A stretch of DNA of 64,000 nucleotides from Pseudobutyrivibrio xylanivorans DSM 14809. GTDB lineage: Bacteria; Bacillota; Clostridia; Lachnospirales; Lachnospiraceae. The stretch lies in NCBI RefSeq assembly GCF_900141825.1, contig NZ_FQYQ01000008.1, positions 1 through 64,000 of the forward strand, in the 5' to 3' direction. The notes below the pieces were generated by a model. The model was not told where the DNA came from, did not search any database, and saw only the letters and a program-made list of their open reading frames with translations. Numbering within the stretch: the stretch's first letter is position 1; each line of letters starts with the position of its first letter. A program made the translations under genes and the position numbers. Below are positions 36,082-47,764 of this stretch, in pieces.

Positions 36082-39000
36082 TTATAATTCTTCCTCTGGC
36101 TTATCCTCGGAATTCTCATTAATACTATCATCGGTTTTTTCACCAGATTCTTCCTCAGACTCACTTTCTGACTCACCCTCAGATTCTTCCTCCGACTCAT
36201 CCTCAGATTTCTTATCAGAATCATCTGAATCAGGAGTGCCTGGTTCATTTTCCTCAGAAGTATTTTCTTCTGATTCCTCAGGTATGTCTGCATCGTAAAT
36301 CTTTACTTCCAGACGACCACCATCATAGCTGTCATTGCCATCAGGGTCGATTGCAAACATTACAGAGTCACCCTTATGAACAGTATAAATTTCCTTGAAA
36401 GAAACTGTACGTTCCTCGCCAAAGTTACCCTGGATATCGCCACCAATCCATTTCTTTTCCTCTCCATTAATGAAGATTCTCATGCAAACACCATTTGCAT
36501 TTGGATCTGCGCTGTTTGCAAATTTAGTGTAGCTTCCATCCACAACAATTCTTCCATTTTTGGCAGCCATCCACATGTAGGCTGCATTTCTACCATTACC
36601 TGGCTCTACAAAATCAGGCTTAAGTTCTGGCTTTCCGTTATTGTAGTAACGATTGTTTTCCTCATCAAATGGAAGTCTTTCAAAATTCTTTCCATCCCAA
36701 TCGCACATACCGTAGTACCAGCCATTTTCTCCCTGAATACCAGTAAAGTCATCTGCAAGAGTTGTATTGTTTTCTCTAGCTTCCTCTTCTGGAATGTCAC
36801 TTGCATCGTAGATGTTTACAGATAATCTACCGGCATCCCAGGCATTATTATCCTTAGCATCAATTACAAAGGAAATCTTGTCTCCTCTAGATACATTAAG
36901 CCCCTCTAACATAAAGTTTACAGAGTTGTCATTTCCATCTCCCTGGAACACCTCTACATCCTCTGTTACAAGAACAGTATCATTTACATAAACAAGTACC
37001 TTTACGCCATCTGGCCAGCTTGGATTTCCATCATTTTGTCCATACTTTACATAGTTTCCAAGAACGTCTATTTTGCCATCCTCATAGACAACCCACTGAT
37101 AAATAGCTGCTGCATCCTTTGCTGGATGTACATAATCCTTCTTCATTTCAAGACCTTCATTTTTTGAAGAAAGGAATGCTGAGCTGTCATCATTTGTCTT
37201 CATCAAGCATCTGGCTGAATCAATGCTCTTTCCTTCAAGGAACCACCAGCCGTCTTGGCCCTGTGCAAGTGGAGTTGTAAGCGCACCAAGTGAAGTATTG
37301 TTTGAACGCTCCTCATCTCCAACTGTCACTCTAAGCATCTCAGAATCTGCTATATCAATATCAAGACAACCGCCGTCCCATGCACTGTTTTTATTGCAGC
37401 CAATATCAAAGGTAAGGATATCGCCAGCCTTTACAGCAAGCTTGTTGAACTGAATATTTTTAACAGTTCTATTATTCTCACCTCTTGGACAAGTCACAAC
37501 CTCTTTGAGAAGCTCGCTGTCATTTTTGTAAACCGAAACAACAACACCATCTGGCCAGTCCATGTTTGGATCTTCGTTACCATGTTTTGCATAGCTTCCG
37601 TTGATATCGATATTTCCATCAACAGCTACTACCCACTTATACATTGCATGAGCGTTTAATCTAGGCTGTACATAATCTCTCTTTACTTCGAGCCATTTTG
37701 CCTTTCGTGAAACATAACCGCTTCCATCGTCAGTTTTCTTTGTAAGTATTTCTGCCTTTTTAATTGAACGTCCTTCTAAGTAATACCAGCCATTGTTGCC
37801 CTGCTCACCAAAATCAACCTTGAGGTTTGCATAGTTGCTACCGCTATTATTCACCATTTTTGTGGTCTTGTAATCAGCATCCTCAACAACGAATGTGTAA
37901 TTTCCACCATCGTACGCAGTGTTTTCCTTGCCATCTACCATAAGTGAAATGCAATCTCCAGCCTTAACCCAAAGACCTTCATAGCTCAAATCTTTTGTAA
38001 CTTCCTTTGATACTTCAGGAGCAAACTCTTCCTTTTTGAGAACCTGTCCGTTCTTCATCAGAAAAACATTTACACCATCAGGCCACTCAGGATTTTTATC
38101 AAGATTCTTGTGCTTTGTATATGTAGTTAATACATCGACACTGCCCTCTTCTTTTGCAACCCATTTTACGATGGCTGAGCGTCCCTTATTGCCAGGCATG
38201 ATGTAGTCACGCTTAATTTCTACGCCATCTTTTGTTGTGTACTTTTCATTCTTGGCATAGGTTTCAAGATTTACTGCATAGCCAGGATCAAGATAATATC
38301 CCGACTGATAGCACAATCCGTTTGCTCCCTGTGAGCCAAAATCTTCAACTGTTGAGCAGTTGTTGCTTCTGCTATCTGAATAAGAAACAACATCCTTTTC
38401 TGTTTTACCGGTAAGTGGAGTGATTCCCTTAATTGAAAATTCAAACTTACCAGCATCATACGCATTGTTTTCCTTTGGATTTACAACCATTGTGATGAAA
38501 TCATCTTTTGCAACATCCACCTCTGCAACATCAAGGCGCTTTGTCACTTCGTTTATACGGTCTGGTGCAAATTCCTCTGAAACAAGAGGTGTATCATTAT
38601 GGAAAATAGTTACCTTTGTTCCATCAGGCCAGCTAGGATTCTTATCCTCGTTCTTAAACTTTGTGTAAGAAGCATCGATTTTAACCTTTCCTGTTTGAGC
38701 CACCTTCCACTTGATTACAGCAGAACGTCCCTTGCCTGTGTTTACGAAATCACGCTTTATTTCAAGATAGCTTTCATCAAAATATCTTTCTTCGTCTTTT
38801 TCGAAGTTTGTCATATTCAGGGTATCTGTTGGGTCGTCCTCATAACCCTCCTGGAAGAACCAACCATTATTACCCTGCTCACCGAAATCGTATTTTACAT
38901 CGGCAAAATTCTGCCTTGTTTCGGTTTCATCAATTGCCACATCCTTCTCGGTGGAGATGCCTTTTCTATCTAAAATATTAATATCAAAGGCACCACCATC

Positions 39001-40212
39001 ATAGGATGCATTACCGTCAGCTGACACCATAAAATATAACTTATCCGCAGTCGTTACTTTTATGTCCTTATCACGGAACTTGATTTCATTAGTTCCTGAT
39101 GAAGGAGCAGCTACTTTCTTTGTATATAAATTCTCCCCATTCTTATAAACAGAGACGGTAACACCATCTGGATACTTAGGATTTCCATCGTTCTGCTCGA
39201 ACTTTGAATATTTCATCCTAAGCTCTATATCTCCATCCACAGCTGGCTGCCAGCAAAGAATCGCATTGTCATTTATAGATGGATGAATAAAGCCTTCACT
39301 CATTGTGAGATTTGGTGATGTGGCATTTAAATATTCTTTACCATTAAATGTAGAAACAAGGCTTGCATCTTTAACGCTCTTACCGTGAAGATATGTCCAG
39401 CCTCTATGGCCCTCAGCACCAAAGTCCTCAAAGTTATTAGCATTATTATTTTTTCTTTCATGGTCAACAGTTGCCTGTAATCCCTTATTATCAACATCAT
39501 TTATTGATACATAAAGTGAGCCACCATCATAAGCATTATTTGCCTTTGCATCTACTACAAAATAAAGGCTTTCAAGCTCTTTTACATCCAGTTCCTTTAG
39601 CTCCTGCTCCAGAACCTTTTCTGTTTCTGTGCTGACATCCACATCATATCTTCCCAGCATCTCGTCACCTTTATACGCATATACGGTAACGCCGTCAGGA
39701 TATGATGGATTCTTATCACCATTTACAGATTTTACATATGTAAGACTAACATTTACTTTTCCATCCTTTGCAGCACGCCACTCTAAAATAGGAGCAGCAG
39801 CTTCAGAAGTATGGATGAAATTATTTTTAACCTCAAGACCGCTTACACCGCGCTGTGAATATTTCTCTCCATCAAAATTTTCCAGGCGCTGTGAGCGACT
39901 AGGATTTTGTGCAGAACCATATCGATAAAACCAGCCATTCTTTCCCTGCTCGCCAAAATCACTTACGTTGAATGCGTTATTTGTACGATTTGGAACATCC
40001 ACAAATTCTGGCTCAACATATCCTTCTACATCAAAAACCTCTGGCCATTTTGCAGATAAAAATGTAAGTCCTGTTTCCTCTAGCATTCCATCTTCGCTAA
40101 GATTCCCTGCCAAATGTATTCCCGCTGCTGCGCCGCCTCCTACAACAGCGACACCAGCCAAAGCTATAAGCGCCTTTTTTGTGATTAGCTTTTTAACCAC
40201 ATTATTAACCAT
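36082..40212 (-). CDS. Large cell-surface protein with seven repeated beta-sandwich-like domains
   Basis: The 1,376-residue protein has a basic start and a hydrophobic segment (about 13-35, ALIALAGVAVVGGGAAAG) that could be a signal peptide or membrane anchor. Seven repeats of about 170-185 residues follow, starting near 76, 255, 440, 610, 785, 955 and 1130. Each opens with D-F-G-x-Q-G-x-x-G-W-x-Y-x-x-G, has NPxWPDGVxVxVYKN in the middle and ends GDxIxFxVDxKxNNAYDGGxLxVxI. The tail (about 1305-1376) is almost all Glu, Ser and Asp. No LPXTG is present. It lies 12 bp after the GH32 lipoprotein gene, so binding of fructan or display of enzymes is a reasonable guess. The repeat family was not recognised. 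Confidence 0.75.
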   Translation of the reverse strand: MVNNVVKKLITKKALIALAGVAVVGGGAAAGIHLAGNLSEDGMLEETGLTFLSAKWPEVFDVEGYVEPEFVDVPNRTNNAFNVSDFGEQGKNGWFYRYGSAQNPSRSQRLENFDGEKYSQRGVSGLEVKNNFIHTSEAAAPILEWRAAKDGKVNVSLTYVKSVNGDKNPSYPDGVTVYAYKGDEMLGRYDVDVSTETEKVLEQELKELDVKELESLYFVVDAKANNAYDGGSLYVSINDVDNKGLQATVDHERKNNNANNFEDFGAEGHRGWTYLHGKSVKDASLVSTFNGKEYLNATSPNLTMSEGFIHPSINDNAILCWQPAVDGDIELRMKYSKFEQNDGNPKYPDGVTVSVYKNGENLYTKKVAAPSSGTNEIKFRDKDIKVTTADKLYFMVSADGNASYDGGAFDINILDRKGISTEKDVAIDETETRQNFADVKYDFGEQGNNGWFFQEGYEDDPTDTLNMTNFEKDEERYFDESYLEIKRDFVNTGKGRSAVIKWKVAQTGKVKIDASYTKFKNEDKNPSWPDGTKVTIFHNDTPLVSEEFAPDRINEVTKRLDVAEVDVAKDDFITMVVNPKENNAYDAGKFEFSIKGITPLTGKTEKDVVSYSDSRSNNCSTVEDFGSQGANGLCYQSGYYLDPGYAVNLETYAKNEKYTTKDGVEIKRDYIMPGNKGRSAIVKWVAKEEGSVDVLTTYTKHKNLDKNPEWPDGVNVFLMKNGQVLKKEEFAPEVSKEVTKDLSYEGLWVKAGDCISLMVDGKENTAYDGGNYTFVVEDADYKTTKMVNNSGSNYANLKVDFGEQGNNGWYYLEGRSIKKAEILTKKTDDGSGYVSRKAKWLEVKRDYVQPRLNAHAMYKWVVAVDGNIDINGSYAKHGNEDPNMDWPDGVVVSVYKNDSELLKEVVTCPRGENNRTVKNIQFNKLAVKAGDILTFDIGCNKNSAWDGGCLDIDIADSEMLRVTVGDEERSNNTSLGALTTPLAQGQDGWWFLEGKSIDSARCLMKTNDDSSAFLSSKNEGLEMKKDYVHPAKDAAAIYQWVVYEDGKIDVLGNYVKYGQNDGNPSWPDGVKVLVYVNDTVLVTEDVEVFQGDGNDNSVNFMLEGLNVSRGDKISFVIDAKDNNAWDAGRLSVNIYDASDIPEEEARENNTTLADDFTGIQGENGWYYGMCDWDGKNFERLPFDEENNRYYNNGKPELKPDFVEPGNGRNAAYMWMAAKNGRIVVDGSYTKFANSADPNANGVCMRIFINGEEKKWIGGDIQGNFGEERTVSFKEIYTVHKGDSVMFAIDPDGNDSYDGGRLEVKIYDADIPEESEENTSEENEPGTPDSDDSDKKSEDESEEESEGESESESEEESGEKTDDSINENSEDKPEEEL

Positions 40213-43093: not shown

Positions 43094-43954
43094 ATGTTTG
43101 ATTCAATAGAAGATATTTGCAAAATTGAAGAGGAATCTCATATTCCTTTTTGGAAAATAGTTCAGGAGGATGATTGCAAGGAGCGTGCTGTTTCCTTGGA
43201 GGAATCTTTTCAGGCTATGAAGGCTATGTACACAGCCATGAAGGAATCTGCCTTAAACTATGATTCGCATATACGAAGTAACAGTGGACTCGTTGGCGGG
43301 GAAGCTGGACTTCTTAGAAAATATTTAGATGAAGGTCAGCCTTTAGTTGGAGAATTCACAGGGCGTGTTATGGAGCTTGCACTTCGTGTAGCCGAGGGCA
43401 ATGCCTGTATGAAGCGTATCGTTGCTGCACCAACAGCAGGTTCTTGTGGTGTTGTACCTGCAGTATTCATCGCCGCACAGGAAAAGCTTGGCCTATCAGA
43501 TGAAAAAATGACCGAAGCACTTTTTGTTACAGCCGGTGTAGGTGCAGTCATTGCAAAGCGTGCATCCCTTGCAGGTGCAGAAAGTGGATGTCAGGCCGAA
43601 ATTGGCTCAGCTTCCGCTATGGCAGCAGCCGGCCTTGTTTATCTAAAAGGCGGCACAGGACGACAAAGTGCCAATGCAGCCTCACTTGCCCTTAAGAATC
43701 TTTTGGGACTTGCCTGCGATCCGGTTGCTGGCCTTGTGGAGGTTCCATGCGTAAAAAGAAATGTATGTGGCGCCATGAATGCAGTGACATCTGCAGAGCT
43801 TACTATGGCTGGAATCGAAAGCCGCATTCCTGCCGACGAAGTCTTTGACGCAATGAGTGCCATCGGAAAAAGCATGAATCCCGACATAAAAGAAACCGGC
43901 ACAGGTGGCGTAGCCGCCACACCTACCGGAATCAAAATCGCCAACTCAATCTAA
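43094..43954 (+). CDS. sdaAA: L-serine dehydratase, iron-sulfur type, alpha subunit
   Basis: This subunit carries the 4Fe-4S cluster of the oxygen-sensitive enzyme that turns L-serine into pyruvate and ammonia. The ATG at 43094 has AGGAG upstream and starts MFDSIEDICK; an upstream in-frame start (43073) would put the ribosome site inside the gene. The 286-residue protein has RSNSGLVGGEAG, AAPTAGSCGVVPAV, ESGCQAEIGSASAMAAAG and LLGLACDPVAGLVEVPC; the cysteines in these blocks hold the cluster. The matching beta subunit is 3.8 kb away on the other strand. Just past the stop begins a large foldback. Confidence 0.94.
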   Translation: MFDSIEDICKIEEESHIPFWKIVQEDDCKERAVSLEESFQAMKAMYTAMKESALNYDSHIRSNSGLVGGEAGLLRKYLDEGQPLVGEFTGRVMELALRVAEGNACMKRIVAAPTAGSCGVVPAVFIAAQEKLGLSDEKMTEALFVTAGVGAVIAKRASLAGAESGCQAEIGSASAMAAAGLVYLKGGTGRQSANAASLALKNLLGLACDPVAGLVEVPCVKRNVCGAMNAVTSAELTMAGIESRIPADEVFDAMSAIGKSMNPDIKETGTGGVAATPTGIKIANSI

Positions 43955-43964
43955 TAAGCTGTAG

Positions 43965-44591
43965 TTACCATTCACAGCCTATTGATAACTCTCTCTTGCA
44001 TGCCCTGCAGGCCCCGCCGCCCACCATGGGCTAGGAAAAACATCGCAAGAATATTATGTTTTCCATATATGCAAAGACTCGCATTCTTATTTGCAAGTGT
44101 CTTTTGTAAGTCTTTACAATTTTGAGAAATGTAGCCACTGGGCGGACAATAAATTAACTGAGTTGGATTTTCTAGTTTAATGAGCAACTTGTGTGAGTTT
44201 GGAATGAGCTTAGAAAAATAAAGAGCAGGTTTTGTAATGTATAGGCAGCAGCCGCTAGGACGGCGGCTGCAGTGGTCACTTGAAACACGATGTTGAATGT
44301 GCCACGGTGACTATACATACAAAACCTGCTCTTTTAATTTTTCTTAGTGAATGGAGCAGGAACACAAGTGCTCATTGAACTGGAAAATCCAAATATAATT
44401 AAACTAGGATTGTCCGCCCCTTGTTCTACATTTCTCAAAATAGTTCATACTTCAAAAGACACTTGCGAATGCTCCCTGTTTGCATATTGGAAAACTATAA
44501 TATTCGCGAAATCGTTTTCCTAGCCCATGGTGGGCGGCGGGGCCTGTAGGGCATGCAAGAAAATGCACACTATAGGCTGTGAATGGTAATG
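43965..44591. repeat. Giant imperfect inverted repeat (~625 bp foldback), candidate structured RNA or foldback element
   Basis: The left arm (43965 to about 44244) and the right arm (about 44311 to 44591) are reverse complements over long blocks: TTACCATTCACAGCCTAT, TTGCATGCCCT(G/A)CAGG with the CCCCGCCGCCCACC block, CAAGTGTCTTTTG, TTTTGAGAAATGTAG, GGGCGGACAAT, TTGGATTTTC, AATGAGCA and AGAGCAGGTTTTGTA, separated by diverged stretches of similar length. The tip has two smaller hairpins: GCAGCCGC/GCGGCTGC (44248-44270) and one between GTGG and CCAC (about 44272-44304). No protein is evident in it. It fills the whole gap between the convergent sdaAA and panD genes. Confidence 0.9.
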
Positions 44592-44594
44592 GGG

Positions 44595-44984
44595 CTACTG
44601 CTCGCCGAGTTTTCCGTGCTTCTCGTAGTTTGTGATGCGAGCAGCTTTGTTGTTGTCGTCTACGAAAACGACCTTAGGTTTGTGGCCTTTTGCTTCTTCG
44701 GCTGGGATGCTGCAATAGCACATGATGATTACATGGTCGTTTACTGATACGCAACGAGCTGCTGCACCATTAAGGCAAATAACACCGCTTCCACGCTCGC
44801 CTGCTATTGTGTATGTTTCAAAACGGTTTCCATTCTCCACATCAACAATCTGCACCATCTCGTATTCAAGGATACCTGCCGCATCAAGCAAATCCTCGTC
44901 GATTGTGATGCTTCCCACGTAGTCAAGCTCTGCCTGTGTTACTGTTGCTCTGTGTATTTTGCCTTTAAGCATTGTTAAATTCAT
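44595..44984 (-). CDS. panD: Aspartate 1-decarboxylase PanD
   Basis: PanD makes beta-alanine from aspartate for pantothenate. It is made as a proenzyme and cuts itself between glycine and serine to form a pyruvoyl group; the site is visible in [18 protein letters not shown]. Further family marks are [48 protein letters not shown] and [11 protein letters not shown]. The 129-residue length is normal. It is last in the pan operon, 16 bp after panC, and its stop lies three bases from the foldback. Confidence 0.96.
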
Positions 44985-47604: not shown

Positions 47605-47764
47605 GGGCAACACCTCCTTATTTATCCGGGGGTGATACAGTCTCGTTCAAAATGATACGAGCATGCCATCGGGCGCACCTTTTTAAAATTTAGAAGCTAA
47701 AAGGTATAGTTTCTTTCGAATACCATCCGAAGGACACTATAGCATTTGTGTGGTACAAAGTAAA
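47605..47764 (-). promoter_or_regulatory. Promoter and leader of the pan operon
   Basis: On the minus strand TTTACT (47759-47764) and TATAGT (47736-47741) are 17 bases apart, with TGC before the -10. The leader of about 125 bases can form hairpins, among them GGTAT/ATACC and CTCGT/ACGAG. A conserved pan RNA motif is known in leaders of panB/panC genes in Firmicutes; whether this leader belongs to it could not be verified. Confidence 0.5.

Follow-up and report, generated by a model that had tools for sequence, protein, structure and literature searches.

A palindromic, probably MITE-like foldback element with a TwoAYGGAY-type tip between sdaAA and panD of Pseudobutyrivibrio xylanivorans

Introduction

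What occupies the gap between the convergent genes sdaAA and panD in Pseudobutyrivibrio xylanivorans DSM 14809, a structured RNA or a piece of mobile DNA? The question arises from a window of 64,000 nucleotides (the whole stretch of DNA that was analysed, positions 1 to 64,000 of contig NZ_FQYQ01000008.1), in which sdaAA, for the serine dehydratase alpha chain, ends at 43954 and the stop of panD, for aspartate decarboxylase, ends at 44595 (+ strand). An earlier note on this DNA described the gap as one imperfect inverted repeat with a branched tip, and preferred a conserved RNA rod or large ornate RNA over a mobile foldback or two inverted copies of a ~280-bp element. Here we argue that the hairpin is probably a non-autonomous, giant palindromic MITE-like foldback DNA element inserted between the two genes. 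Genomes and loci carry our own G and L numbers, G000 being the genome of the window.

Structure of the foldback

The gap is occupied by a foldback of 627 bases, placed at 43964-44590 on the + strand, with its orientation taken from the Rfam tip described below; the repeats, the fold, the ends and the empty site in two relatives (G001 and G005) support it as a unit. These borders improve on the 43965-44591 first given, being set by 14-bp terminal inverted repeats, GTTACCATTCACAG on the left (43964-43977, + strand) and ATTACCATTCACAG on the right (44577-44590, - strand), which match at 13 of 14 positions, a feature of MITEs. The arms are 77% complementary over 305 aligned columns, with inverted blocks of 111 nt (at 82%) and then of 32, 24, 18 and 17 nt, and the predicted minimum free energy of 43940-44610 as RNA is -368.8 kcal/mol, compared with -176.9 for 20 shuffled sequences, none of which equalled it (z = -27), so that the description of the gap as a single imperfect inverted repeat stands. 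The left outer arm (43965-44038, + strand) is locus-specific and C-rich in its inner part (69% GC at 43997-44038), and the right outer arm (44517-44589, + strand), its near-complement, is G-rich (67% GC at 44517-44558). These values of 67-69% compare with 37.4% for the core and 38.6% for the window overall; the paired blocks and the GC-rich stretch that had been quoted before were both found. The core itself, of about 478 bp (44039-44516, + strand), is common to many copies in the genus and was delimited by match limits that cluster near query positions 80-557. Because the arms form one palindrome around a conserved asymmetric core, the alternative of a ~280-bp element present twice in inverted orientation finds no support. 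The only open reading frame inside the element, from the list of such frames, has 71 aa (43972-44187, - strand) and looks chance-like; on that list no transposase gene is apparent in the element. Elsewhere in the window, 36082-40212 encodes a 1376-aa protein with repeated units and an acidic Ser/Glu-rich tail, for which no convincing Pfam family was found.

The TwoAYGGAY tip

The apex of the foldback (44198-44359, + strand) matches the Rfam family RF01731, TwoAYGGAY, with a covariance-model score of 52.9 bits, above the curated cut-off of 43, and the branched tip noticed earlier corresponds to the layout of this family, two hairpins and an outer stem. Hairpin 1 (44248-44270, + strand), recognised from the sequence and from covariation in 72 sequences, carries GGA in its loop (UAGGAC); hairpin 2 (44272-44305, + strand), recognised from the sequence, has the loop CGAU and lacks the second GGA. 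Since the window copy does not have the two AYGGAY loops that give the family its name, it is called a relative of RF01731, not a strict member. In the Rfam scan of the window only RF01731 and, elsewhere, RF01749 reached the cut-off, the latter being a pan motif upstream of pantothenate genes (47635-47729, - strand; 36.4 bits, cut-off 36.2). The large RNAs suggested in the earlier note, ROOL, GOLLD, OLE and HEARO, gave no match in the window and were not among the three families returned by a permissive search of 43900-44650.

TwoAYGGAY is catalogued as an RNA in a table row of PMC2864571, and a CsrA-binding role has been proposed for it in a passage of PMC4333381. What we describe is that the motif crowns a mobile palindrome hundreds of bases long, whose arms are specific to each locus; on this that row and that passage are silent. 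A functional non-coding RNA gene, in the form of a rod of ~600 nt with a protein-binding tip (for CsrA, a GGA-binding regulator, for example) that transposition spread incidentally, would agree with the cataloguing and the published proposal, with internal loops conserved in several genera, and with hairpin 1, whose pairing is maintained through many pair types in 72 sequences; this covariation is also compatible with a folded DNA strand. We regard such a gene as unlikely. GGA is present in loop 1 of 69 of 72 tips, but it is missing from loop 2 of the window copy, of every one of the 26 tips counted in G010 and G021, and of 8 of 16 tips in G008; of the tip mismatches, 30 G-U against 2 A-C in the 72 sequences, 25 of the G-U pairs that give the tip its RNA-like look come from one column; there is no overall strand preference relative to the flanking genes; and the arms have no excess of G-U, as set out below.

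Copies in the genus and beyond

By DNA comparison the element lies in five places of the window genome, with a possible sixth, on contig C40, from the RF01731 matches. A DNA comparison with relatives, of the kind suggested before, gave matches in 25 of 29 Pseudobutyrivibrio genomes, and RF01731 was found in 27 of the 29, with 0 to 49 matches per genome. In a sample of the order it occurred in 15 of 196 genomes (11 above the cut-off), and in a sample of the phylum in 51 of 398 genomes (34 above the cut-off) and 41 of 267 genera; all these genome-scan counts are lower bounds, as the genus scan picked up other copies in G000 and missed the window copy itself, which reaches its 52.9 bits when scored alone. 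The copies in Pseudobutyrivibrio are foldbacks of ~280-870 bp, and elements in five other genera of the family measure 218-484 bp. Self-complementarity scans recovered 30 of 33 loci and 28 of 33 Pseudobutyrivibrio loci (the lists overlap), the remainder being cut by contig ends, so that the scan was centred wrongly. Another 17, more distant loci are mostly ~206-301 bp long, among which L376 is too short, L386 has no arms, and L373, L384 and L385 are near background. The copies of the five genera and the more distant ones have a plan in common with those of Pseudobutyrivibrio, an apex, an inner stem with internal loops and a paired outer stem, in which copies by eye have little sequence in common. 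Two other families of the order gave ten hits, mostly below the cut-off, which are either unclear or small hairpins (108-253 bp). In plasmid and phage collections the element was not matched, and a 17-base tip pattern searched in viral contigs gave 8 stretches, about what chance would give by a rough estimate. Close clustering also occurs: L097 (G101:C2:28299-31462), in another genus, holds three TwoAYGGAY elements in ~3.2 kb, and close pairs are present in G169 and G069.

That the palindromes are an assembly or amplification artefact, producing inverted duplicates, has a negligible probability. Assembly does suffer from hairpins, as L267 has Ns at its tip and several copies lie at contig ends, but the same structure is found in the single-contig genome G001 (L013, L037) and in G028 (L014), and the asymmetries of the core are conserved in many species.

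Presence, absence and target duplications

At the sdaAA-panD junction of both scorable relatives, G001 and G005, the stops lie ~10 bp apart with the hairpin absent; at 22 panD places in other genomes the junction with sdaAA is not conserved and so could not be scored. Eight loci were scored for presence and absence by self-complementarity, namely the window locus, four others of G000 (eight relatives searched, those with both flanks placed being used, L353 included) and three of G010 (of six queried). Out of 30 relatives, 8 were filled (scores 60-148) and 22 empty (scores 9-15). Two of those counted as empty, G001 at L002, where remnants of both arms form a deletion scar, and G005 at L003, which holds an extra gene, indicate that loss or rearrangement accounts for part of the pattern.

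Among the fetched Pseudobutyrivibrio loci, ends of the GTTAYYATTCACAG type gave 33 end-pairings from 30 elements. Exact direct repeats of 8 bp flank 5 of the 30 elements (L015, L155, L268, L271 and L272) and two more match at 7 of 8 positions, compared with 0.36% reaching 7 or more matching positions in a control with flanks mixed across rows; exact repeats of exactly 5-7 or 9-12 bp were absent from the 33 end-pairings. Most of the 30 elements have no target duplication, nor has the window copy (1 of 8 positions match), for which reason we use the label MITE-like. The ends of an element in G206, from another genus, are different, and a 9-bp repeat is apparent there by eye. As to setting, convergent genes flank 22 of the 51 copies scored in three Pseudobutyrivibrio genomes and divergent genes flank 3; outside the genus convergent settings do not prevail, and 13 of 28 copies have divergent neighbours. 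The element family thus looks mobile, and the window copy presumably arrived by transposition as well. The earlier note had tied a mobile foldback to many near-identical copies with target-site duplications: the many copies, the empty sites and the 8-bp duplications of 5 of 30 elements agree with this, but only the cores are alike and the window copy has no duplication.

Arms that differ between copies and mirror each other within a copy

In G010, the cores of 17 copies are 0.78-0.98 identical (median 0.91). From copy to copy the 130 nt beyond the core show no relationship (median score 11, against 9 for shuffled sequence), but within a copy the flanking stretches mirror each other with scores of 42-68, matched in all 17 copies. 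The same holds for 18 of 20 copies in G008 (L141 and L143 being unmatched) and 13 of 15 in G021 (L102 and L106 unmatched), and a few pairs of copies do share arms. Left arms in Pseudobutyrivibrio are C-rich and right arms G-rich. For the window element, a search of 29 genus genomes found outer-arm-like sequence elsewhere only in G001 and G026, as a recognisable relative in one G026 element and as fragments in both genomes, so that arms are not unique in every case. Two orthologous pairs were compared: L002 and L014 are 97.5% identical throughout, and L060 and L053 have retained flanks and outer arms around an inner 400 bp that differs, a locus with a replaced core. The latter pattern suggests that the core is exchangeable and that the arms are a property of the locus. 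Within these orthologues some of the differences in the arms are, by eye, paired.

Where the flanking genes converge, the mirrored stretch often begins at both stop codons. In the 22 of 52 copies usable for a test of mirrored 3' ends, the first 45 nt past the stops matched each other better than in any cross-copy comparison in 7 of 8 (G010), 6 of 9 (G021) and 2 of 5 cases (G008), and the last 42 coding nt, measured against their own cross-copy scores, did so clearly in L118 alone and by a small margin in five more. Mirrored terminators were seen by eye at L105, L112, L113 and L115; outward copying would explain them, and simple insertion does not. The mirrored 3' ends and terminators of convergent genes are the basis of a tentative reading, to which we give rather less than even chances, that the core is a seed making its surroundings palindromic: template switching round the stable apex would copy one flank across, progressively outwards, until coding sequence protected by selection is reached. 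That the outer arms arose by inverted copying of the DNA first targeted was considered and is unsupported at the window locus, where the empty relatives have only ~10 bp between the genes; the mirrored gene ends at other loci could still stem from a later copying process.

DNA-level or RNA-level pairing

Arms selected as RNA are expected to show more G-U than A-C mismatches on the RNA strand. In 72 copies the outer arms have 209 G-U and 276 A-C, a lean towards A-C (p = 0.003), and the core arms 227 and 237, in a comparison whose copies are related, whose alignments include some flank and which has no positive control. With no excess of G-U over A-C, the complementarity of the arms appears to be kept at the DNA level. 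The G-U pairs pointed out in the earlier note are real and carry little weight, A-C being as common in the family. Its lead towards an RNA was reasonable in view of the RF01731 tip; the arms without G-U excess, the signs of mobility and the failure of ROOL, GOLLD, OLE and HEARO to match speak against a large RNA rod.

Template switching between arms has been described for imperfect palindromes in passages of PMC7202029 and PMC8604942, and would keep arms alike without selection on an RNA. It does not predict the lean of the outer arms towards A-C. The quasipalindromes of those passages are likewise imperfect inverted repeats made more alike by inter-arm copying; they are treated there as mutation hotspots, whereas in the present elements the match between arms extends over hundreds of bases and persists as sister copies diverge.

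The search for a mover and related palindromes

An autonomous parent with the same ends was found neither in G000 (search by end pattern, up to 2 mismatches allowed, sites paired by eye) nor in G001, G008, G010 and G028 (up to 1 mismatch). The only candidate from the pattern searches, in G028, is an IS4-family element (Pfam DDE_Tnp_1, NCBIfam IS4) with its own different ends, nested in a palindrome. The IS4-family element in L265, flanked by GTTACTATTCACAG, was rejected as a parent, as its own ends are CAATGTCATT... and lie inside that palindrome. IS4-family elements of the genus lie inside hairpins at 5 of the 13 loci listed (L285, L287, L288, L289 and L296, in G028, G024, G013 and G010), with ends CAATGTCATTWAGTTAAG; the hairpin is a terminator in three cases and the GTTACTATTCACAG palindrome in the other two, and four show, by eye, loop-spanning repeats of ~9-11 bp. 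Other small palindromes were also noticed. L183 (G000:C19:121469-121660), L266, L278 and L279 are palindromic elements of 95-250 bp with GTTACTATTCACAG-type ends and other tips, such as TCAAGCTTGCTTGT in L183 and L266; L186, L187, L188 and L194 (G000) are single intergenic imperfect palindromes of 17-18 bp that resemble GTTACTATTCACAGTAAC, which may be relics, minimal elements or operators.

The IS4-family elements inside hairpins lend some plausibility to the idea that the core is a separate element inserting into the loops of existing hairpins, such as terminators or other palindromes, the outer arms then being the old target. At L003, moreover, the outermost bases AAGCCTTCC/GGAAGGCTT equal, by eye, the stem of the terminator at the G005 orthologue. 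Such an origin seems quite improbable to us, given that the arms pair up to the core with no offset like that of a target duplication (by eye), that the empty relatives at the window locus have ~10 bp and no hairpin, and that the target duplications lie outside the outer ends.

Relation to known systems

Prokaryotic MITEs, as described in passages of PMC10969869, likewise have terminal inverted repeats, intergenic sites and no transposase found inside, with stable stem-loop transcripts predicted and 7-9 bp direct repeats for QMITE2. The elements described here differ from that description in being palindromic almost throughout, with outer arms that are GC-rich, not AT-rich, and show no relationship from copy to copy, and in their apex, which is conserved across genera whose ends differ (G206). 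REP elements and the insertion sequences that target them (PMC1525189) resemble them as dispersed intergenic palindromes and in having hairpins as insertion targets; REPs are 20-40 bp long according to a passage of PMC3733652, against 280-870 bp for the elements in Pseudobutyrivibrio. Among the matches listed in searches of the open-licence literature for repeats of Butyrivibrio or Pseudobutyrivibrio, bacterial foldback MITEs and long inverted repeats, the element was not found.

A model for the element and its implications

We propose that a unit with GTTAYYATTCACAG-type ends would be mobilised in trans by a transposase, with duplication of 8 bp of target; in Pseudobutyrivibrio it lies mostly downstream of genes. 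Its apex would be a TwoAYGGAY module retained in many genera, presumably for its branched hairpin, which a protein or the transposition process may recognise in the form of RNA or of single-stranded DNA. The long arms would stay complementary mainly at the DNA level, replication template switching transferring changes from arm to arm, so that each locus may drift to its own sequence while remaining a palindrome, with a core that could be exchanged between copies. Several observations go against the mobile-element reading: the window copy has no target duplication, no transposase with the same ends was found in G000, G001, G008, G010 and G028, the covariation of hairpin 1 is of the kind that a functional RNA would show, and the C-rich/G-rich skew of the arms is left over. 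The MITE-like foldback nevertheless remains our probable reading.

For the family RF01731, hitherto an orphan, the finding provides a new setting, the apex of mobile palindromes in Pseudobutyrivibrio. It also carries a warning, since the covariation of a DNA palindrome can mimic conserved RNA structure, and weighing G-U against A-C may help to separate the two. If the seed reading were true, convergent genes would gain mirror-image 3' ends, terminators included, that are unique to their locus, and the element would rewrite its own flanks; such outward copying would connect template switching during replication with the way in which gene ends and terminators take shape throughout the genus.
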